From a virus, in the IMG/VR virus record IMGVR_UViG_3300008050_000009, positions 1-38,134 of that record: a stretch of 38,134 nt of DNA. One strand, 5' to 3'. Both the position numbers and the translations under genes were made by a program. Below, in pieces: positions 2,201-36,842 of the stretch; within the stretch, counting starts at the first letter, position 1, and every line of letters starts with the position of its first letter. The notes below the pieces were generated by a model. The model had not been told where the DNA came from and searched no databases. It saw only the letters and a list, made by a program, of their open reading frames with translations.

Positions 2201-2557
2201 TTGGCTTATGGATTGTACTTAATCATGGACCAGCCCAAATGGTATCGTGATGATTTTAGTTCTGAAAACAAACTAACTGGCACAATTTATACTAATCAAT
2301 CATATACAAAAAAGAAAAACCTAACAGGATATACACTCAAAATAAGATTATACAAAAATTATAGATGGGGAGATTATTTCGGAAAGACTGCAACAATTAG
2401 TTCTGCTACAGGTGGAACATTCGAGTACGCAGTAGGAGATAATGAAATGCCACCACCTAATATCTATAACATTAAATTGGAATTATCAAAGTCAGGTGTC
2501 CAGGAATCGACACTGAACAGACAAGAGTTACTTATCCTTGAGGGTCCATCTTCTTGA
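2201..2557 (+). CDS. Virion protein with Ig-like/BppU-like fold, 118 aa
   Basis: First gene of the head operon. The TTG start at 2201 fits a leaderless transcript from the TATA box at 2169-2180; the ATG at 2225 is the alternative. The sequence is beta-rich, with a pattern like the N-terminal domain of phage baseplate proteins (LTGTIYTNQSYTKK, then NLTGYTLKIRLYK and a GGTFEYAVGD stretch). A second protein of similar size and pattern is at 17946-18290 in the tail module. The 3' end overlaps the portal start (TTGA). It may be a small head or neck decoration protein. The fold is inferred from pattern only. Confidence 0.65.
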   Translation: MAYGLYLIMDQPKWYRDDFSSENKLTGTIYTNQSYTKKKNLTGYTLKIRLYKNYRWGDYFGKTATISSATGGTFEYAVGDNEMPPPNIYNIKLELSKSGVQESTLNRQELLILEGPSS

Positions 2558-3930
2558 TATTTACAACTAGAGACAGCATAGGAAATCCTATAGTAAGTGA
2601 GGCTCTGCCTAAGATTGTAGAGGCAAAGGTTCCACTAGCCAAAATAGTTAGAAGTGACTTCTCTAGAGAACAACCAGTCCAAGTAACATTTGAAAGGCTG
2701 CTAAAATATCATGACCGTACACCACAGATTCAAATAGCAGTGTCATCATATTCAGAATTAATCACTGGCACAGAGATGACAGTGAACACAGAGAATGAAA
2801 AAGCCAAGACATTAATTGAGGAATGGATTAGATCAACAAATTTCTATGACAAATTTGAATCACTCGTCACTACCGTACTAATCACAGGTAATGGTATATT
2901 AGAAAAGTTAGATGAGAATGATGTCCAAGATGTTCTAGAAGTTGATATGGCAACCATCATAGCTAAAAAGAGAGACATATCAGGTAATCTAGAATACTAT
3001 GAACATAGGACACAGAACGGTCAGACAGACAAACTAGGAGAGGGCAAACTAGGAAAGTTTATTGAATTCAACTTAACCAATTATTCCAGACAGGCATGGG
3101 GAAAATCATTATTCTATAGTCTAGCTATTCCAAGAACAGTAGGGAATCGTACTACTGCACCACTAATAGAAATCATGTGGGGTATAGAGGACGCCATGGG
3201 AGCCATCATATTAAATAATGCTTATCCAATTACTACTATCACTTATCCTGGAGCCAGTGACACATATCTAGAGAAAGAGGCAACAAGATGGCAGAGATAC
3301 AAGCCAGGAGATAAAAGAGTCCAGAAGATAAAGCCAGAGATTGAATTCTTTGAGACAACAGGTAATAGTAAGTACACAGATTACATCACACATATAGAGA
3401 AATCATTTGAACTAGGGACCCAATTCCCACACGATATTATGACAGGAGATTTCACAAGTAGAGCTAGTTCAGAGACAACAGACAATATCGTAATGAAGCG
3501 AGTCAGAGGTTATCAGAGATACCTATCTAACAAATTAAAGACAGAATTATTTGACAGTATATTAATACAGAACGGATTCGACCCAGACGAGGTTGACCTC
3601 ACTATAGGATTCACAACTCAGAATGTAGTAGAGTTAGAAGTAGGACAAGTTAAGGACCTAGTAGATAGTGGACTATTAACAAAGAATGAGGGTAGAGAAT
3701 GGTTCCGAGAGAATACAGGTATGGAACTCCCAGATGATGAGGAGATTAAGGCTAATCAAGATATGGCAAATACTGTGGCTATGAACGCACAGGACATAAA
3801 GAAAGAACATATTAATAAATTCAACCTTGAGGAAGTTAAGAGTGTCATTCCCAAGAAGAAAAGAATGTGTAAGATGTGTAAGGAATCACAACACTCACTA
3901 TGTACGAAGCGTGGATGTCAATGCCAGTAG
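2554..3930 (+). CDS. Portal protein
   Basis: 458 residues, the usual size for a portal, which forms the dodecameric ring at the capsid vertex that receives the terminase and later the tail. Features typical of the family: an early segment binding conserved polar residues (PQIQIAVSSYSELI), an amphipathic GNGILEKLDEN region, the WGKSLFYS motif near residue 182, and a long helical stem/crown with TTDNIVMKRVRGYQRYL. It lies between an Ig-like protein and the capsid protease, as expected. The TTG start overlaps the upstream stop as TTGA. Unusual: the last 25 residues are a Cys-rich tail (CKMC, then SLC, CQCQ) that could bind zinc, a feature not seen in ordinary portals. Reading is by context and motif; a profile search would settle it. 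Confidence 0.85.
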   Translation: MIFTTRDSIGNPIVSEALPKIVEAKVPLAKIVRSDFSREQPVQVTFERLLKYHDRTPQIQIAVSSYSELITGTEMTVNTENEKAKTLIEEWIRSTNFYDKFESLVTTVLITGNGILEKLDENDVQDVLEVDMATIIAKKRDISGNLEYYEHRTQNGQTDKLGEGKLGKFIEFNLTNYSRQAWGKSLFYSLAIPRTVGNRTTAPLIEIMWGIEDAMGAIILNNAYPITTITYPGASDTYLEKEATRWQRYKPGDKRVQKIKPEIEFFETTGNSKYTDYITHIEKSFELGTQFPHDIMTGDFTSRASSETTDNIVMKRVRGYQRYLSNKLKTELFDSILIQNGFDPDEVDLTIGFTTQNVVELEVGQVKDLVDSGLLTKNEGREWFRENTGMELPDDEEIKANQDMANTVAMNAQDIKKEHINKFNLEEVKSVIPKKKRMCKMCKESQHSLCTKRGCQCQ

Positions 3931-4289: not shown

Positions 4290-4470
4290 TCGGATATGGC
4301 ATTACATATTCATAGTTTGACCAAGAAGCGTATCGTGAGAACGCCATGAGAAGAAATAACTCATCATTGAGGTCAATCTATTAATTCTTATAGTATTATA
4401 CACCAAGAGTAATTAACGTCCTATAGGGAGTGAGGCGATAAAGAACGTTGATACGTCATATCGCTTCTTA
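4290..4470 (+). ncRNA. Candidate structured RNA between portal and protease genes
   Basis: The gap 4265-4496 holds no gene above 17 codons but has a TATA box at its left edge and a strong nested hairpin at its right: GAGGCGATA (4432-4440) pairs with TATCGCTTC (4459-4467), 9 pairs with one G-U, and inside it ACGT (4445-4448) pairs with ACGT (4453-4456) around a TGAT loop. It could be a small viral RNA or the 5' leader of the protease mRNA. No known RNA family was recognised. Confidence 0.35.
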
Positions 4471-4496
4471 TTATACTAAATATAGAGAAATTAGTT

Positions 4497-5075
4497 ATGC
4501 GATTAGAAGCTTATACCAAAGTATCAGAATCTGCTAAAATATCTGGTGTCGCATTAATTCCAAGAATTAGCAGAAATAATAATTTATACACTAAAGCCGA
4601 ATTAGAAAGATTTGACGGAGTAGAGGTTCCACTAAATTGGGAACATAATCCAGGACAAGTAATCGGCACAGCAACATTTCACTATAATCCAAGCTTAGAG
4701 ACTGTATATTATGAAGGAGAAATCACTAATGAAGGTGCAGCCAGTCTAGCTAAGAATAAAACATTATTTACAAGTATAGAGGCTAATCCCACAGATTTAA
4801 GAGAAATATGTAATGGACCTGGAGATTGTTTCTCTATGCCTTACGGACTAAATCCCGTAGGACTGGCACTAACTGAAACACCAGGAGTGCCAGAGACAAC
4901 AGTAAATGTCATGGAGAAGTACATTGAAGAATGTAGCCACCATGATAACAAATACACTAAAGGAGCAGACTATACAAATTATCATAAAATTAGTTCACAA
5001 GTAGAGAATCTATTAGAATATCTAAATCTTGAAGTTTGTGAAGATTGTGGTAAGCTTCACGAAAAAAAAAACTAG
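4497..5075 (+). CDS. HK97-type capsid maturation protease
   Basis: 192 residues. This protease (U35/prohead class) cuts scaffold and capsid precursors inside the prohead. Visible features: an N-terminal strand with GVALIP and RNNNLYT (residues 17-32), the putative catalytic His in PLNWEH (H50) followed by VIGTA, and the putative nucleophile Ser in LFTSIEANP (S93), the usual His then Ser order and spacing. The remaining domain carries an LALTETPGVP segment common in this group. The C-terminus holds a Cys pair (CEDC). The normal stop is TAG at 5073, directly after ten adenines that form the slippery heptamer A AAA AAC; a -1 shift there would extend the protein by 400 residues. The position between portal and major capsid protein supports the call. 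Confidence 0.8.
   Translation: MRLEAYTKVSESAKISGVALIPRISRNNNLYTKAELERFDGVEVPLNWEHNPGQVIGTATFHYNPSLETVYYEGEITNEGAASLAKNKTLFTSIEANPTDLREICNGPGDCFSMPYGLNPVGLALTETPGVPETTVNVMEKYIEECSHHDNKYTKGADYTNYHKISSQVENLLEYLNLEVCEDCGKLHEKKN
5062..5075 (+). promoter_or_regulatory. Programmed -1 frameshift (slippery) site
   Basis: Zero-frame codons read GAA AAA AAA AAC TAG. The last seven bases before the stop, A AAA AAC, are a canonical X XXY YYZ slippery heptamer, and the ten-A run (5062-5071) would also allow transcriptional slippage. After a -1 shift, reading continues CTA GAA AAA GAT without a stop to 6274. A palindrome CCGTTAACGG (5115-5124) flanked by GGATA/TATCC lies downstream and could form a stem, though about 35 nt away. 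Confidence 0.65.
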
Positions 5076-6274
5076 AAAAAGATGATACTAAGAAAAAAGA
5101 ACCTGAATGGATAACCGTTAACGGAGTTCATATCCCTATCAAACCAGGACAGAATAAAGATGATGTTGTTAAACAATTTCTTAAAGACCAACCACAAGAT
5201 GATAATAAACCAAAAGTAACTAAAGGTCCTGGATATGATGATTGGAAGAAAAAACAAGATACACAAACATTATCTCCAGAAGAAAAGAAGAAAAAACAAG
5301 CTGATTGGTGGGCAAAGAGAGAACAAGAGTTAAAGAAGAAAAATCAAAAGGATACTGATAATATACCATCTTCAGAGATACCTCAAGAATTAAGACCAAG
5401 TGGTCCAAATTATAGAGTAGAAGCTGAGAAAGCCACACTTAGAGATAAAATAGAATCAGAGGAGAAATTTATAAAAGATTACTCTGATAGATTATCAGCA
5501 GAACAAATTAAAGGAATAAAAAATCAAATAGAACTAAAAAAAGAACAGTTAGATAATGTTGAAATAAACGATAAAAAATTAGGATTACCACACATACCAA
5601 TGAAACCTAACACACATACAAAGAACACTAATGGATTCATACATGATAAAACAAAAATTAGTATTCAAAAAGCAGTAATAGATAATCCAGGAAGTAGTAT
5701 GATGAGTGATAGAGTAAAATCATCATGGAATGCCTTACCAGATGAGCATAGGAATTTAGTTGATAAATTAATAGTTAAACAAAGTAGAGCTGTAAAATCT
5801 CACAACTGGAGAGGTGGAAGTTATAATGCAACTACTAAAACTCTTACAGTGAATCTAAATAGTAGAGCTCAAGGTAATATTGAACATAATTTTTACCATG
5901 AAATAGGTCACGCTAGATGGCATGAAATCAATCAGAAATCTCCTGAAAAAATTACGAAGTTTAGAGAACAGATGAAAAATATAGGAATTGCTCCTACACA
6001 TTATGCAGAATCATATAGAGACGCTAAGAATAGAAATGATGTATCAGAGAGGAATTACAGAGAAAAAATGAGGAGAGGAGGACACCCAATATCTCCTATG
6101 GCAGAGGAAATATTATCTGCTAATAGAAAATCACAGGAGTCTATCTATCATAATGAATCCCACAGTGAATTAAATGCCTATGTACTTGGTAATCTACCTA
6201 AAAACAAAATTCTAGCTAGTCCAGAGACTATGAAAAAATTACTAAATGCTTACAAGGAGTTACATGGATTATGA
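5072..6274 (+). CDS. -1 frame extension of capsid protease: linker plus HExxH zinc metallopeptidase domain
   Basis: An open frame of 400 codons starting directly at the slippery site. No start codon (ATG, GTG or TTG) exists in it before ATG 5600, yet 5072-5599 is clearly coding: EPEWITVNGVHIPIKPGQ (a motif common in phage head proteins), then a Lys/Glu-rich helical linker (KKKQADWWAKREQEL). The C-terminal domain has YHEIGHARWHEIN (HExxH at residues 100-104 counted from ATG 5600) and a downstream NESHSELNAY with a candidate third ligand (E190), the gluzincin layout. If produced by frameshift, the fusion is about 592 residues; if started at 5600 it is a 224-residue peptidase alone. Possible roles: prohead processing, or a peptidase packaged in the head and delivered to the host. 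It overlaps the next gene as ATGA. Confidence 0.75.
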   Translation, partial: LEKDDTKKKEPEWITVNGVHIPIKPGQNKDDVVKQFLKDQPQDDNKPKVTKGPGYDDWKKKQDTQTLSPEEKKKKQADWWAKREQELKKKNQKDTDNIPSSEIPQELRPSGPNYRVEAEKATLRDKIESEEKFIKDYSDRLSAEQIKGIKNQIELKKEQLDNVEINDKKLGLPHIPMKPNTHTKNTNGFIHDKTKISIQKAVIDNPGSSMMSDRVKSSWNALPDEHRNLVDKLIVKQSRAVKSHNWRGGSYNATTKTLTVNLNSRAQGNIEHNFYHEIGHARWHEINQKSPEKITKFREQMKNIGIAPTHYAESYRDAKNRNDVSERNYREKMRRGGHPISPMAEEILSANRKSQESIYHNESHSELNAYVLGNLPKNKILASPETMKKLLNAYKELHGL

Positions 6275-6840
6275 GTGAACAACCACCACTTCCTGAAAGA
6301 ATAAACCGAGTCGAGGTATTATTAGATGATGATAATAAACCAGTAAATGATATTAAAAAAGCAGTTAGTAAATATGTAATAATCATTGATAATGATGGCG
6401 AAGTAACAGACCAATATGATGTAGAAATAATCAATGGTATAGACCCAGAAAGAGAATCAATATGCCCAAAATGTGGCGAAGGAGTCAATCTAGCAGGACC
6501 ACAGGCAAGAGCAGATATTAAGAAAAAGAAACGATTTGAATTTGTAGAGTCTCTTGATGATTCCTGGAAAGAAGTAGAACACTATCTAATGGAAGATTCT
6601 ACAAATAGTGGACAGAAATCAGACACAGTAGGAAATCCAGAGTTTAAATCATTCACTCATTCATCATCATTTATAGGTAATGTAGTATGGGATAGAGAGA
6701 GCAGAGAGATGGACATAATACTAAACGATAAGACTTATCACTTTTGCAGAGTATCAGAGAGATTATTTGACTCATTCGAGGGAGCAAGTAGTAAGGGTGC
6801 CTTCTTCAACAGGGAGATAAAGACACTCCATGATTGTTAA
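6271..6840 (+). CDS. Head-associated protein with zinc knuckle and C-terminal KTSC domain
   Basis: 189 residues. The N-terminal part is acidic and beta-rich (YVIIIDNDGEVTDQYDVEI) and carries one Cys pair (CPKCGEG). The C-terminal 65 residues match the KTSC domain pattern: FTHSSSFIGNVVWDRES, then a strand ending in KTYHFCRVSERLFDSFEGAS and SKGAFFNREIK. KTSC domains often end phage minor head proteins and some lysyl-tRNA synthetases; their role is not settled. The gene overlaps the protease extension as ATGA and the next small gene by 11 nt, so it belongs to the capsid operon. It may be a minor head or scaffold-linked protein. Confidence 0.65.
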   Translation: MSEQPPLPERINRVEVLLDDDNKPVNDIKKAVSKYVIIIDNDGEVTDQYDVEIINGIDPERESICPKCGEGVNLAGPQARADIKKKKRFEFVESLDDSWKEVEHYLMEDSTNSGQKSDTVGNPEFKSFTHSSSFIGNVVWDRESREMDIILNDKTYHFCRVSERLFDSFEGASSKGAFFNREIKTLHDC

Positions 6841-7009
6841 TTCCATTAAAGGATTCATTAATGGATTAAAGAAATCATTTAGTGGTAAGGATTATTTAAG
6901 AGAGATAAACCAATGTGATAAATGTGGCAAACCAAGCTTTTTCGGTTCATGTCTAAAATGTGAGACAGATGAAGCATATCGTGGTTGGAATAAAACAAAT
7001 AAACTTTAA
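6830..7009 (+). CDS. Small zinc-ribbon protein, 59 aa
   Basis: ATG at 6830 lies 11 nt inside the upstream gene. The first 28 residues form an amphipathic basic helix (VNSIKGFINGLKKSFSG), followed by a neat zinc ribbon CDKC and CLKC nine residues apart, with a short C-terminal tail. It is the last gene before the major capsid protein. Role unknown; it may bind nucleic acid or a capsid partner. Confidence 0.6.
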   Translation: MIVNSIKGFINGLKKSFSGKDYLREINQCDKCGKPSFFGSCLKCETDEAYRGWNKTNKL

Positions 7010-7054
7010 ATTATGATAGTTACTTCTTATCTAATCACTATTTAAAGATTATTC

Positions 7055-8500
7055 ATGCCTTGCGATTGTGAAAACAACAAAAAAGAACAGGACGAATGTC
7101 CTGAAGGACAAACATTTGACGTTTCAAAAGGCGAATGCGTAGCAAAAGAATCTGCATTTGGAGACCCAAAAACTACAGACGCACAAGCTGACGTAGCTTC
7201 ATCAGGAGCTGACGTTGGTGGAAGCCAAGAAGTTGAGGGAACACAATGCCCAGAAGGTCACAGTTTAAACGCTGACTCTGGTGTATGTGAACCAAATGGC
7301 TCTGATAAGACAGGAGATATTGGACAAACTAATACTTCTATCGCAACAGAGAATAGTAAGAGACTTAACGCAATCGAACAATCCATAAAGGCTCTAGCAG
7401 AAAAGAAACCATCTGCACAAGTAGGCTTAGAAGACGGTCATAAGACCTGGTCTCAAGTCGCTGAACAGATGGCTCCATCTTTGAGAAAATTTGGTAAGTT
7501 TGAGTTCGATATTTCCTTAGAATCCCTAAGAAGTATCAACACCAAACAAACTAGAGATAGAGCAGGAGCAGTAACTGAATCATTCAGAGACTCTCCTCTA
7601 CAACTCAAAGAAGCCGTATCTATTAGTGGCACACACGCAACACAGGACTTAGACACTGATGTTGCTATTGTTCCTGGTGGAATTTCTTTCAAACCAGTAT
7701 TCCAATTTGCAAAGACTAAACGCATTGAAGCTGGAATGGATAGAGCTAGATTCTTCAAGACAAGTATCCCTGCAAATGGGTCCCAAACTGTCGGTACAAC
7801 ACCTTCAGAAGCAACACAAACTTTCACTTCAATCGAAGTAACTCCAAGCACCATTACTGGTGTATATCTAGTCGGAGACTTTGATGAAATTGAAAATTCT
7901 CCATTCGATTTGCTACAAGCAATCGTCGAAGGAAGTGCTGCCTCATACGAAGATTTCGTTGCAACAGACATGTTAGACACCATCTCAGCAGAAGGAACCC
8001 TAACTCCAGGACTCTGGATTAGAGGCGACACAGGTGCAACTATTACATCTTCAGACGTAGCTAGTATGGCTATGGACGAGACTGGTATTGCATTTGGTAG
8101 AGAATATCTTGAAAATCAAGGATACCTTAGAGGCGGAATTAAACCAATTTGCTTCCTCGACCCACAACAGTGGCGGGAACTAATAACATCAACTAACGTT
8201 ACAAGTTTAGCAACCAGAAGCGCACCAGACATTTGGCTTAAAGCCGAATTGGAGCAATTTATGGGAGTTCAACTAATCGTTACTAACGCAGTAGAGCATA
8301 AAAACAACACCACAAACAATGCCGTTAACGCATACATGTGTGTTCCAAAACACTCATACGGAATCGGTATTAAACGTGATGTAACTGTTAAAATGCACGA
8401 AGTTGGCGAAGATAATCAAGTCCGAGTAAATACAACCTGGAGAACTAAAGCAGGTGTAATTGATTCTAGCAGTATTGTTAGGATTAGTACAACCGATTAG
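7055..8500 (+). CDS. Major capsid protein, HK97 fold
   Basis: 481 residues. After a variable N-terminal region (1-125) the sequence follows the HK97 capsid plan: an N-arm/E-loop region (SFRDSPLQLKEAV), a long FKPVFQFAKTKRIEAG region, a P-domain spine helix (DLLQAIVEGSAASYEDFVATDML) and A-domain strands (IKPICFLDPQQWRELI, then GVQLIVTNAVEH, YGIGIKRDVTVKMHE). Unusual: the N-terminus has two matching Cys loops, CPEG...GEC at C15-C28 and CPEG...GVC at C65-C78, plus C3 and C5. The protease upstream may remove this region. Codons are somewhat richer in C-ending forms than in neighbours, fitting high expression. A T8 terminator follows. A TTTAAA lies only 12 nt upstream of the start, so the promoter position is unclear. 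Confidence 0.85.
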   Translation: MPCDCENNKKEQDECPEGQTFDVSKGECVAKESAFGDPKTTDAQADVASSGADVGGSQEVEGTQCPEGHSLNADSGVCEPNGSDKTGDIGQTNTSIATENSKRLNAIEQSIKALAEKKPSAQVGLEDGHKTWSQVAEQMAPSLRKFGKFEFDISLESLRSINTKQTRDRAGAVTESFRDSPLQLKEAVSISGTHATQDLDTDVAIVPGGISFKPVFQFAKTKRIEAGMDRARFFKTSIPANGSQTVGTTPSEATQTFTSIEVTPSTITGVYLVGDFDEIENSPFDLLQAIVEGSAASYEDFVATDMLDTISAEGTLTPGLWIRGDTGATITSSDVASMAMDETGIAFGREYLENQGYLRGGIKPICFLDPQQWRELITSTNVTSLATRSAPDIWLKAELEQFMGVQLIVTNAVEHKNNTTNNAVNAYMCVPKHSYGIGIKRDVTVKMHEVGEDNQVRVNTTWRTKAGVIDSSSIVRISTTD

Positions 8501-27542: not shown

Positions 27543-27563
27543 GCTTTAAAGCTTGTTTACAGG
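27536..27563. repeat. 28-bp palindromic element, copy 2, at the MCM start
   Basis: It contains the perfect palindrome AAGCTTTAAAGCTT at 27541-27554. On the minus strand it begins CCTGTAA and ends CTGG, exactly like copy 1 (1900-1927), with the palindrome shifted 4 bp within the same 28-bp length. It covers the stop of the upstream gene and ends one base before ATG 27565, so a protein bound here could block helicase expression, or the site may serve replication. Confidence 0.7.
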
Positions 27564-27564
27564 T

Positions 27565-29616
27565 ATGTCAGATACAAAATCATATAGATATAGTGGTAGT
27601 AAGGAAGAATATAACCAATTTAAGATAGCAGCCATGAATGAGGGTAAATCAGTAGAGGAAATGATTAGTGGATTCATATCACAGACAGCCACAATATCAT
27701 CACATGATGAAGATGGTAATAACAAAACAGCTAGTAAATATCAAGATGAACTCAGAGACTCTATACCTGAGAGAGACCTCAAAGACCTAATAATCAAAGG
27801 CTCATATCATGTAATTATCAATAATATTGAGTTCATTCAGGCTTCTAAACACGACCTATCTATGAGAGTAAGAGACGCTGTACATGGAGCAGTCTATAAT
27901 TATTGGATTAGAAGATGGACTCTGGCAAGAGGTAGAGACCCAATACAAGCAGATGTGTTATACTCTGGAGATGATAGACAGAAACAACTAAGAAAATTTA
28001 ATGAATCAATTAGTAAAATAAACGTGACATTTACCTGTGAACTCCCAACTATCACTCTATCAGATTTGAGAGAGACTGACCTTGGCAGTGTAATACAATT
28101 TGACTGTATAATTATTGGTCCAACACCAAAGAAGCTAGACCTAACCACAAACAAGTATATCCAGAAAGTGTTAATTCAGGAACTAGAATCAGAAGCAAAG
28201 AACAATAATCCTGTCATGATTAAAGCAACCCTACATGGAGACGACACTAATAATATTGCAAGTGGACAAACTAAGAAATTTATCGGTATCTATAGTACAC
28301 AGGAACCAGCTAACGGTCAAAAAGTAGAAGGAGAGAAGGCACTAATAATAGACACTATATCAGTACAAGACCTGGAAGAAAAAGCAGAGGTAACTCTCAC
28401 ACCACATGAGTTATCTATAGTTAAAGAGATGGCAGAGAATGACACTGACAACTATATGGAGAAATTAATAGACTCTTTCTGTCCTAAGATATACGGTAGA
28501 GAACTAGAAAAGAAGGCAATCTATCTATCACTCTTAGGTGGTTCAGACTTTGTAGGATATAGGAGAGAGTCACACCTCATGCTAGTAGGCGAAGCCGATA
28601 CAGGTAAGTCAGAATTAGTAAAGTTTGCCAATGAGATTACACAAAAAAGTAGTATAGTGGATGGAAGTAATGCCACAGGTGTTGGTCTTATGTTTGCACT
28701 AGATGACTATGACGGTATGAAAATACTAAGACAAGGAGCCATGATATTGAATTCAGGTGGACACATGATAGTAGATGAATATGACAAAATGCCAAAACAA
28801 GAACAGAAGAAACTCAACCAAGCTATGGAACAGCAGAGAGCAACATACAACAAAGGTGGTCACATGGGAAATGCAGAATGTAAGACAGCTATAATAGCCT
28901 CATGTAATCCAGAGAATGAAAGATGGAATGAGGGAAAAACCATAATAGATAATCTACCATTTGACGCTAGTACAGTGTCTAGATTTGACCTACTAATCAG
29001 ATTAAAACATGAGGCATTAGAGAATCAAATTAGAGCCAAGATGTTACACATATCAAAAGGTAAGAGAGGAGACCTTGACAAAGTGGCAGACCCACAATGG
29101 CTTAAAGGACTACTAAACTATCTAAGAACACTTAGACCAACATTTACACCAGAGGCAGATGAATTATTAATCAACAAATATGTAGAATTTACCATGATAG
29201 AACAGAGTGATGGAGCTCTACCAATACAGACAAGACAGATGGAAGGAATACAAAGACTATGTGAAGCATGGTCAAAGATGTTATTCAAGAGCAAAGTGAC
29301 AGCAGATATAGTAGAGGATGTGATTAGATTCTACCAGGAATGTCTATCAACACTCGGAATGAAAGTAGAGAAAGGAATATCTCAAATGGACCTAAGAGGT
29401 CATTCCACAAACAAGGATGAATACTTTGAAGATTGTTTCAGAAATTTAGCTAAAGATGATGAGAATGGATTTGTATTTATCCATGACCTTGCAGAAGAAC
29501 TAGAGAAGAATCACAAACTATTTTATAGTGATGAATCCATATCTAGATACATTGAAGCAAGAAAGACAAAAGGTTGGCTATATGAACCAAAGGTGGGAGT
29601 CTTGAAGAAACAATGA
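27565..29616 (+). CDS. mcm: MCM-type replicative DNA helicase
   Basis: 683 residues from ATG 27565; the TTG at 27553 lies inside the palindrome and is less likely. MCM forms a hexameric ring that unwinds DNA ahead of replication. All AAA+ motifs are present: Walker A GEADTGKS (342-349), where cellular MCM has GDPGTAKS; Walker B MIVDEYDKM (D404, E405); sensor 1 ASCNP (N448); arginine finger SRFDLL (R473). The N-terminal half has OB-fold-like strands but no C-x2-C pair, so the usual zinc finger seems absent. The end (ISRYIEARKTKGWLYEPKVG) looks like the winged helix of archaeal MCM. No viral DNA polymerase was seen, so the virus probably recruits the host replisome. It overlaps the next gene as ATGA. 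Confidence 0.92.
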   Translation: MSDTKSYRYSGSKEEYNQFKIAAMNEGKSVEEMISGFISQTATISSHDEDGNNKTASKYQDELRDSIPERDLKDLIIKGSYHVIINNIEFIQASKHDLSMRVRDAVHGAVYNYWIRRWTLARGRDPIQADVLYSGDDRQKQLRKFNESISKINVTFTCELPTITLSDLRETDLGSVIQFDCIIIGPTPKKLDLTTNKYIQKVLIQELESEAKNNNPVMIKATLHGDDTNNIASGQTKKFIGIYSTQEPANGQKVEGEKALIIDTISVQDLEEKAEVTLTPHELSIVKEMAENDTDNYMEKLIDSFCPKIYGRELEKKAIYLSLLGGSDFVGYRRESHLMLVGEADTGKSELVKFANEITQKSSIVDGSNATGVGLMFALDDYDGMKILRQGAMILNSGGHMIVDEYDKMPKQEQKKLNQAMEQQRATYNKGGHMGNAECKTAIIASCNPENERWNEGKTIIDNLPFDASTVSRFDLLIRLKHEALENQIRAKMLHISKGKRGDLDKVADPQWLKGLLNYLRTLRPTFTPEADELLINKYVEFTMIEQSDGALPIQTRQMEGIQRLCEAWSKMLFKSKVTADIVEDVIRFYQECLSTLGMKVEKGISQMDLRGHSTNKDEYFEDCFRNLAKDDENGFVFIHDLAEELEKNHKLFYSDESISRYIEARKTKGWLYEPKVGVLKKQ

Positions 29617-36143: not shown

Positions 36144-36842
36144 ATGAAACCTCACTGTATAGCGTACTCACACATGACAAAAGACGTGGAGTTTGTAGAA
36201 TCCCAAGAGGAATGGAGGGGTAAATGGGATAAAGATGTGATATGGTACGACATAGAATGGCACGAATCACTCAAACTAATACCACTAAACAAACTAAGAG
36301 TAGCAGTTAATCTAGCTATGACCACATGGGACCTAGAGATACCTGTAAAGTATAAACCTGTATGGATGGCAAGAGAACACCATGAACCAGACATAACTAT
36401 AAGATTTGATAATAGAGAGAATGATGATTATTTCAGAAACGCAAAGAGTGTACTAGCCTATGCTTATCTTCCAGGACAGGGTAGTGTATCAGGTAAGATA
36501 GTGTTCTGTGCTGATTTTATCTGGACTACAGATGGTGGACACATCAAAGGAAGTGACGCAATAGAGAAAGGTGTACTAGAGAGAGCATATCCAGACAGTA
36601 AATACAAGACATATAATGTAACTCATGTACTAATACACGAACTTGGACACTCATTAGGATTAAGACACGATACAGACGACAACAGCACAGACGTAATGGA
36701 CCCATATTACAAAGGTACAACATTAGATTTATCCCCAAGAGACATATACAGAATCAGATTAAAATACGGAGTAAGAGTATTCAAACAATGGTCGCACTAT
36801 GCAATACTAAAGAGATGGCTGAAGAACAGAATAAGACGTTAA
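36144..36842 (+). CDS. Matrixin-type (metzincin) zinc metalloprotease, 232 aa
   Basis: The full metzincin signature is present: HELGHSLGLRHD (H165, E166, H169, H175 as zinc ligands and catalytic Glu) and the Met-turn DVMDPYY (M185). Upstream is the matrixin strand order, with NLAMTTWDLEI, ITIRFD and LAYAYLPG...GKIVFCADFIW, close to the calcium/edge-strand region of MMPs. Neither a signal peptide nor a propeptide with cysteine switch is visible, so it would accumulate inside the cell or in the virion. A basic C-terminal helix (LKRWLKNRIRR) may bind membrane. With the holin-like gene 36 nt upstream, the simplest reading is an endolysin equivalent that degrades the protein S-layer of the host; a virion entry protease is the alternative. 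Confidence 0.85.
   Translation: MKPHCIAYSHMTKDVEFVESQEEWRGKWDKDVIWYDIEWHESLKLIPLNKLRVAVNLAMTTWDLEIPVKYKPVWMAREHHEPDITIRFDNRENDDYFRNAKSVLAYAYLPGQGSVSGKIVFCADFIWTTDGGHIKGSDAIEKGVLERAYPDSKYKTYNVTHVLIHELGHSLGLRHDTDDNSTDVMDPYYKGTTLDLSPRDIYRIRLKYGVRVFKQWSHYAILKRWLKNRIRR

Follow-up and report, generated by a model that had tools for sequence, protein, structure and literature searches.

A conserved -1 recoding site predicted at the end of the prohead protease gene in tailed viruses of probable Nitrososphaerota hosts

The virus record IMGVR_UViG_3300008050_000009 of the IMG/VR database, analyzed here over its whole length of 38,134 bases (the window), contains a gene for a predicted head maturation (prohead) protease that ends directly behind a run of ten adenines. 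Specifically, the frame-0 gene finishes with CAC GAA AAA AAA AAC TAG, and a stretch of 400 codons continues from the run in the -1 frame, followed by an overlapping open reading frame (ORF) that encodes a KTSC domain (Table 1). The run and the relation of the two frames are conserved among related viruses, and the -1 frame bears the marks of selection at the protein level, which points to a programmed recoding site that would add an exchangeable C-terminal extension to a minority of the protease chains.

The slip site and the protease

The -1 frame is open from position 5054 to 6274 and, as described in the initial annotation of the window, holds 400 stop-free codons after the slip site, the first 176 of which offer no start codon; the first ATG, GTG or TTG is codon 177 (index 176), an ATG at position 5600. 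A TAA shuts this frame 18 nucleotides (nt) before the slip site, so that no start is available upstream either. At the base composition of the window, 400 stop-free codons would arise by chance with a probability of about 4e-15. In this AT-rich sequence, 2.5 runs of nine A (A9) are expected by chance on both strands, and it is therefore the position and the conservation of the run, not its presence alone, that constitute the evidence. The slippery heptamer A_AAA_AAC noted earlier within the ten adenines (A10) before the protease stop is present, and a second in-phase heptamer, A_AAA_AAA, lies within the same run. Slippage here is predicted to yield trans-frame peptides that read KLHEKKKLEKDD... 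and KLHSKKKLNNEDVALSGDHSK....

Profiles and structural models identify the 192-amino-acid frame-0 product as a head maturation protease of Caudoviricetes with likeness to herpesvirus assemblins and with a predicted proteolytic activity, an assignment already made from the window alone and on which profile matches, fold and gene position agree. Among the 18 family members, 11 match PHROG head maturation protease profile 3270 and 8 match profile 7015, with best E-values of 1.3e-4 and 5.6e-5, respectively; the window protease alone reaches E 0.01 against PHROG 3270, and Pfam S78 matches one member only (E 0.08). In an alignment of 18 proteases built from the loci collected in the present analysis, the putative catalytic His and Ser, H50 (WEH) and S93 (TSIE), are invariant. 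The AlphaFold model (mean pLDDT 67) retrieves herpesvirus assemblins and proteases as the top matches in the PDB (E 0.006-0.02) and 54 matches at E <= 0.001 in BFVD, mainly prohead proteases. In the window, the gene follows the portal gene and precedes the KTSC ORF and then the gene for the major capsid protein.

Conservation among relatives

Protease searches of IMG/VR yielded 41 loci, which are designated by L-numbers. Among the records with a readable junction, an A9 or A10 run with an open -1 frame behind it is found at 33 loci as well as in the window and in L063; the junction of L045 contains ambiguous bases. Grouped at 95% DNA identity, the records with the site form about 24 clusters; they include proteases down to about 56% identity to that of the window. 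Run lengths outside 9-10 A do not occur at the junction in the readable relatives that have the site, and none of the readable relatives was found to encode protease and KTSC in one uninterrupted frame. The frame-0 stop lies within a few codons of the run, at a position that varies among relatives. A further scan for divergent proteases returned the same contigs, and a search of viral contigs with the -1 product by itself gave no relatives.

The run occurs in three codon phases, namely xxA AAA AAA AAC/G, GAA AAA AAA ACG (L019-L021) and GGT AAA AAA AAA GCA (L038), and A_AAA_AAA is in phase in every readable case. What is conserved is hence a stretch of at least nine A plus the in-phase A_AAA_AAA; the heptamer A_AAA_AAC, singled out initially, is not conserved, as L019-L021 and L038 read otherwise. 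In the distant L038, the protease lacks the run. An A9 is found farther downstream, in a separate ORF that is similar to the helical tail of long proteases, and behind this A9 the -1 KTSC frame is open and start-less for 61 codons. It is therefore the tail and the KTSC part that the slip site accompanies, not the protease domain. A CxxC motif shortly before the run is found in the relatives that have the slip site.

Selection on the -1 frame

The start-less region was compared among five payload-free relatives over the 69 codons from the slip site to the first possible start. The ratio of nonsynonymous to synonymous differences (pN/pS) is 0.295 in the -1 frame versus 1.90 and 2.01 in the other two frames, and the differences are distributed over the three -1 codon positions as 87/60/153. 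Judged by these substitution patterns, the region evolves as protein only in the -1 frame. At 17 of 29 loci, the window included, a canonical start is missing between the -1 stop upstream and a point at least 36 codons past the slip site. At the remaining 12, a TTG or ATG precedes the slip site, so that initiation there would be compatible with the sequence alone. Slippage on the A run fits best, because the -1 frame is start-less yet selected as protein.

A KTSC domain and exchangeable payload cassettes

The constant C-terminal part of the -1 products is a KTSC domain (PF13619, E 2e-10 to 1e-13 in relatives), with relatives of known structure in 4rgi, 7x8c and the C-terminus of the HerA ATPase 8wiv. 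Between the slip site and this domain, some loci carry payload cassettes of different kinds, and others a segment with a likely transmembrane stretch (Table 1). Of the protease-peptidase fusion originally proposed, the HExxH motif in the -1 product stands; the conserved partner of the protease is the KTSC domain, and the zincin-like domain is interchangeable. In the window and in L022, the payload has its own stop, and the KTSC domain is encoded by an overlapping ORF with a new start.

Close relatives of the protease bear unlike payloads. The window is 99.6% identical to L003 over positions 4300-5011 and 98.5% identical at the DNA level to L063 over 6478-7060, and in L063 the KTSC domain lies directly behind an A10 run in the -1 frame, with the HEIGH cassette of the window absent. 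L003 and L063 come from a single IMG/VR scaffold with a gap in the protease tail; for this reason, each flank was compared with the window separately, and the two parts were not joined. These sequence comparisons place the HEIGH cassette among several inserts that are exchanged between relatives. The two sides of the gap differ in tail type (A and B), so that the scaffold probably reflects two co-occurring variants joined by the assembler. More generally, the protease tails (window 4940-5048 and relatives) are of two dissimilar types, HHDNKYTKGADYTNYHK.. and ELEHEAAEKAG.., both of which finish with CxDCGKLH before the slip run, so that tail and payload may be exchanged together.

The cassette of the window opens with WITVNGVHIPI, which is modelled as a beta hairpin plus a helix (pLDDT ~80). 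This motif had been considered typical of phage head proteins, for which phage records provide no support, and short tblastn queries with WITVNG and GGQF as known head-protein tags returned nothing useful. The HEIGH motif and its candidate Glu ligand, both noted from the outset, have counterparts elsewhere: HExxH is found in five of five zincin-type cassettes and a downstream Glu motif in all four complete ones. On the strength of these motifs, the window cassette is a probable HExxH zinc peptidase. The cassette of L027 has unannotated relatives in Bacteroides phages (E 4e-6). No family of ADP-ribosyltransferases (ARTs) in the profile libraries matches the L026 and L027 cassettes; the likeness of the L024, L026 and L027 cassettes to ARTs is one of motifs only.

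Related elements also occur in other settings. L084 (3854-6025) encodes the KTSC domain, a GGQFVG element, an HExxH domain and further domains in one continuous ORF without a slip site. In L086, a provirus in a Nitrososphaera metagenome-assembled genome (MAG), the portal ORF (4869-6548) ends with NPNHDPNTGRFASGGGSG plus an extra domain, which is preceded by the element NPNHDPNTGRFASGGG, related to GGQF; an NPNHAP..GGQFTKG element like that of the L086 portal opens two payload cassettes of the marine family. At the end of L048 (about 5380-5422), the translation finishes with SVSYTHLTLPTILRV, suggestive of read-through into a sequencing adapter where the contig ends.

Table 1 Features of the window and cassette types among its relatives
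Feature	Position	Strand	Remarks
Portal gene	2554-3930		window
Prohead protease ORF, short form	4497..5075	+	192 amino acids, ends ..CEDCGKLHEKKN before the stop; PHROG, fold, invariant H50/S93, gene position
CxxC motif (CEDC) shortly before slip site	5037..5048	+	first Cys invariant in 18 aligned proteases
Slip run A10	5062..5071	+	A9 in most relatives; the window has no other + strand run of 8 A or more
Second in-phase heptamer A_AAA_AAA	5063-5069	+	
Heptamer A_AAA_AAC	5066-5072	+	
-1 frame extension	5072..6274	+	400 amino acids, would be reached only via slippage; start-less until codon 177
Frame-0 stop TAG	5073..5075	+	right behind slip site
WITVNGVHIPI, start of payload cassette	5108..5140	+	in L022, L024, L026, L027; variant form in L048
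HEIGH zincin motif	5897..5911	+	HExxH aligns in all five zincin-type cassettes
HSELNAY, candidate Glu zinc ligand	6161..6181	+	THSEF / YAEL / FAEL alike, downstream of HExxH in L022, L017, L025
KTSC-domain ORF	6271..6840	+	189 amino acids, ATGA overlap with cassette stop; PF13619 E 2.3e-11
Major capsid protein gene	7055-8500		window
MCM helicase gene	27553-29616		window
Cassette, WITVNG + HExxH domain			window, L022, L048
Cassette, GGQFTKG + HExxH domain			L017, L025
Cassette, WITVNG + ART-like domain			L024, L027, L026
Segment with likely transmembrane stretch between slip site and KTSC			L018, L019, L051

Probable host and other genes of the window

The nearest annotated relative of both the protease and the capsid protein is the Nitrososphaera provirus Pro-Nvie1. 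A first scan of cellular genomes for relatives found none, and a second gave one match, a Nitrososphaera MAG provirus in which protease and capsid protein form a single ORF. With Pro-Nvie1 as the nearest annotated relative and a further one in this MAG, the family of tailed viruses with the slip site probably infects Nitrososphaerota (Thaumarchaeota; ammonia-oxidising archaea). Elsewhere in this archaeal virus record, positions 36144-36842 encode a free-standing matrixin-type M10 metallopeptidase (PF00413, E 1.3e-22; HELGHSLGLRH). The N-terminal region of the major capsid protein (7055-7300) contains two similar Cys motifs, CPEGQTFDVSKGECV and CPEGHSLNADSGVCE, that resemble the chitin-binding peritrophin domain (CBM_14, E 0.0012, below cutoff).

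A model of the extended protease and its alternatives

The findings are best explained by a conserved programmed -1 recoding site at the end of the prohead protease gene in tailed viruses of probable Nitrososphaerota hosts. Most protease chains would end at the A9/A10 run, and a minority would enter the -1 frame, either because the ribosome slips or because the polymerase that made the mRNA had slipped. The fused chains would thereby gain a C-terminal extension, ancestrally ending in the KTSC domain, into which various payload cassettes have been swapped, that of the window being the probable HExxH zinc peptidase. Since the protease and its scaffold-like tail are expected to assemble inside the procapsid, the fusion would enter it as well. 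KTSC and payload would in this way reach the particle in limited amount, and cleavage by the protease could then free the payload for delivery with the DNA. This logic would resemble that of retroviral Gag-Pol and of the effector fusions to MuF, portal or protease in phages. We infer packaging and injection of the extension from its architecture, by analogy with such systems, and the role as a head assembly or delivery protein that was suggested at first stands on the same footing. Taken as a whole, we consider it likely that a minority protease-KTSC or protease-payload fusion is made by recoding and brought into the procapsid. Payload swapping between close relatives suggests a means of packing selected proteins into the virion in a defined amount. 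More tentatively, and at somewhat less than even chances, this could amount to swappable cargo loading akin to Gag-Pol, in which slippage sets the dose of KTSC-anchored effector enzymes in the capsid that are delivered to the archaeal host.

Several observations weigh against this interpretation. The slip site is absent from L053, a distant relative. At most loci only the KTSC domain follows the slip site, without payload, and this commonest form means that cargo delivery cannot be the sole role of the extension. With regard to the payload itself, no family in Pfam, PHROG or NCBIfam covers the window cassette, and Foldseek gave no match to it in the PDB at E <= 0.001, with selecase (4qhi) and Certhrax (4gf1) among the top weak matches (E > 0.1); the zincin and ART-like assignments are based on motifs. 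Finally, no stable or conserved structure was predicted downstream of the slip site (mean z -0.45 over 28 loci, with pseudoknots outside the model), so that a classical ribosomal signal is unsupported.

This last point bears on the mechanism. As the conserved element consists of at least nine A and the in-phase A_AAA_AAA, the RNA polymerase is as plausible a source of the slippage as the ribosome, and one extra A per transcript would give rise to the same fusion. The run is always 9-10 A long in readable cases despite the three codon phases, and cassette swaps replace the sequence downstream of it, where no structure is kept. Bacterial RNA polymerase moreover slips efficiently in vivo on runs of nine A or T (PMC5009743). 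On the other hand, A_AAA_AAA is in phase everywhere and would suffice for ribosomal slippage, and for archaeal RNA polymerases, programmed slippage is not described in the literature searched. We know of no earlier case of programmed transcriptional slippage in an archaeal virus, and if it is the polymerase that slips here, this would be the first. We give the polymerase nearly even chances; such slippage would concern the mechanism only and does not exclude the proposed fusion and its entry into the procapsid.

The prevalence of payload-free loci also argues for an assembly role of the KTSC domain itself. The frameshift might thus be real and serve head assembly only, with KTSC as a minor scaffold or portal-contact part and the cassettes as selfish or neutral passengers instead of delivered effectors, a reading in keeping with the window and L022, where the payload has displaced KTSC, which is encoded separately from a start codon of its own. 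Several unlike enzyme-like cassettes nevertheless recur at exactly the same point, much as effectors do on phage head proteins, and HExxH has been retained along with the Glu motif behind it. We therefore regard a pure assembly role as unlikely, while taking it more seriously than the two remaining explanations.

According to the first of these, the -1 ORF would be a separate gene with its own start, either a TTG about 27 nt before the slip site or an internal ATG, coupled to termination of the protease. The 12 loci with an upstream TTG or ATG would agree with this, as would the ATG at 5600 ahead of the HEIGH part in the window. The other 17 loci, the window among them, have no upstream start, and for these independent translation of the -1 ORF was rejected; in addition, selection acts at the protein level on the -1 frame of the start-less stretch, and an own start would leave the conservation of the A9 run and the nearby frame-0 stop without a reason. 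We hold this explanation to be improbable. Homopolymers are error-prone and the window is a metagenomic contig, but a sequencing or assembly error in a gene that is really one continuous frame was rejected and has next to no likelihood, since independent contigs from many samples keep A9/A10, the in-phase A_AAA_AAA and the -1 relation with differing codon phases and downstream sequences, and since no relative found has a continuous protease-KTSC frame and none of the readable relatives with the site has a run of another length, such as eleven A.

Implications and comparison with known systems

If true, the proposed recoding would show a virus placing a minority effector in its head at a fixed ratio, and the slip site would mark effectors in viruses of ammonia-oxidising archaea. 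Annotation pipelines will miss the extension, because a start codon is often absent. In the future, natural variants in codon phase, in A9 versus A10 and in the presence or absence of a payload could separate ribosomal from polymerase slippage. In the open literature searched, with some original reports on marine group I viruses outside that scope, nothing comparable to a frameshift at a head protease was found, and the novel part may be the joining of a payload to a head protein by recoding, which sets a ratio.

Known systems share individual parts of this arrangement. The frameshift of lambda G/GT is not based on a nine-A run. The -1 frameshifts of tail assembly chaperones (lambda G/GT and, as putative cases, the tail genes of the haloarchaeal viruses HVTV-1 and HCTV-1/2/5) are alike in that tailed viruses, archaeal ones included, conserve a recoding site close to the end of a gene for virion morphogenesis (PMC8211752, PMC5009743), but they concern a tail chaperone instead of a head protease and produce one kind of extension that is not swapped. 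Only one programmed -1 frameshift has been reported in archaeal cells, at an A-rich slippery site in fucA1 of Saccharolobus solfataricus; it differs in that both parts belong to one cellular enzyme and in that a stem-loop and rare codons have been proposed to contribute (PMC8211752). The provirus Pro-Nvie1 (nvie-Pro1-8), with 34.6% identity to the protease and 33% to the capsid protein, encodes both in one continuous ORF without a slip site.

With regard to cargo, the closest likeness lies in the phage fusions to MuF, portal or the capsid-processing serine peptidase (phage ARTs, Nudix, PBECR and MuF polymorphic toxins), in which variable enzyme domains sit on a head protein and are thought to be packaged and injected (PMC9503650, PMC5512222, PMC5576092). 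For ARTs and Nudix domains, this has been proposed for in-frame fusions to MuF, portal or capsid-processing peptidase (PMC9503650), and packaging and injection of effectors fused in frame to head proteins are likewise assumed elsewhere (PMC5512222). In those systems every copy of the head protein has the effector, whereas in the viruses described here the two would be joined by slippage only, as a minority product. In this respect the arrangement is analogous to retroviral Gag-Pol, in which a minority -1 extension of an assembly protein of the capsid interior brings enzymes into the particle; the viruses and proteins are unrelated, no downstream structure is seen here, and the frame-0 product is itself the protease.
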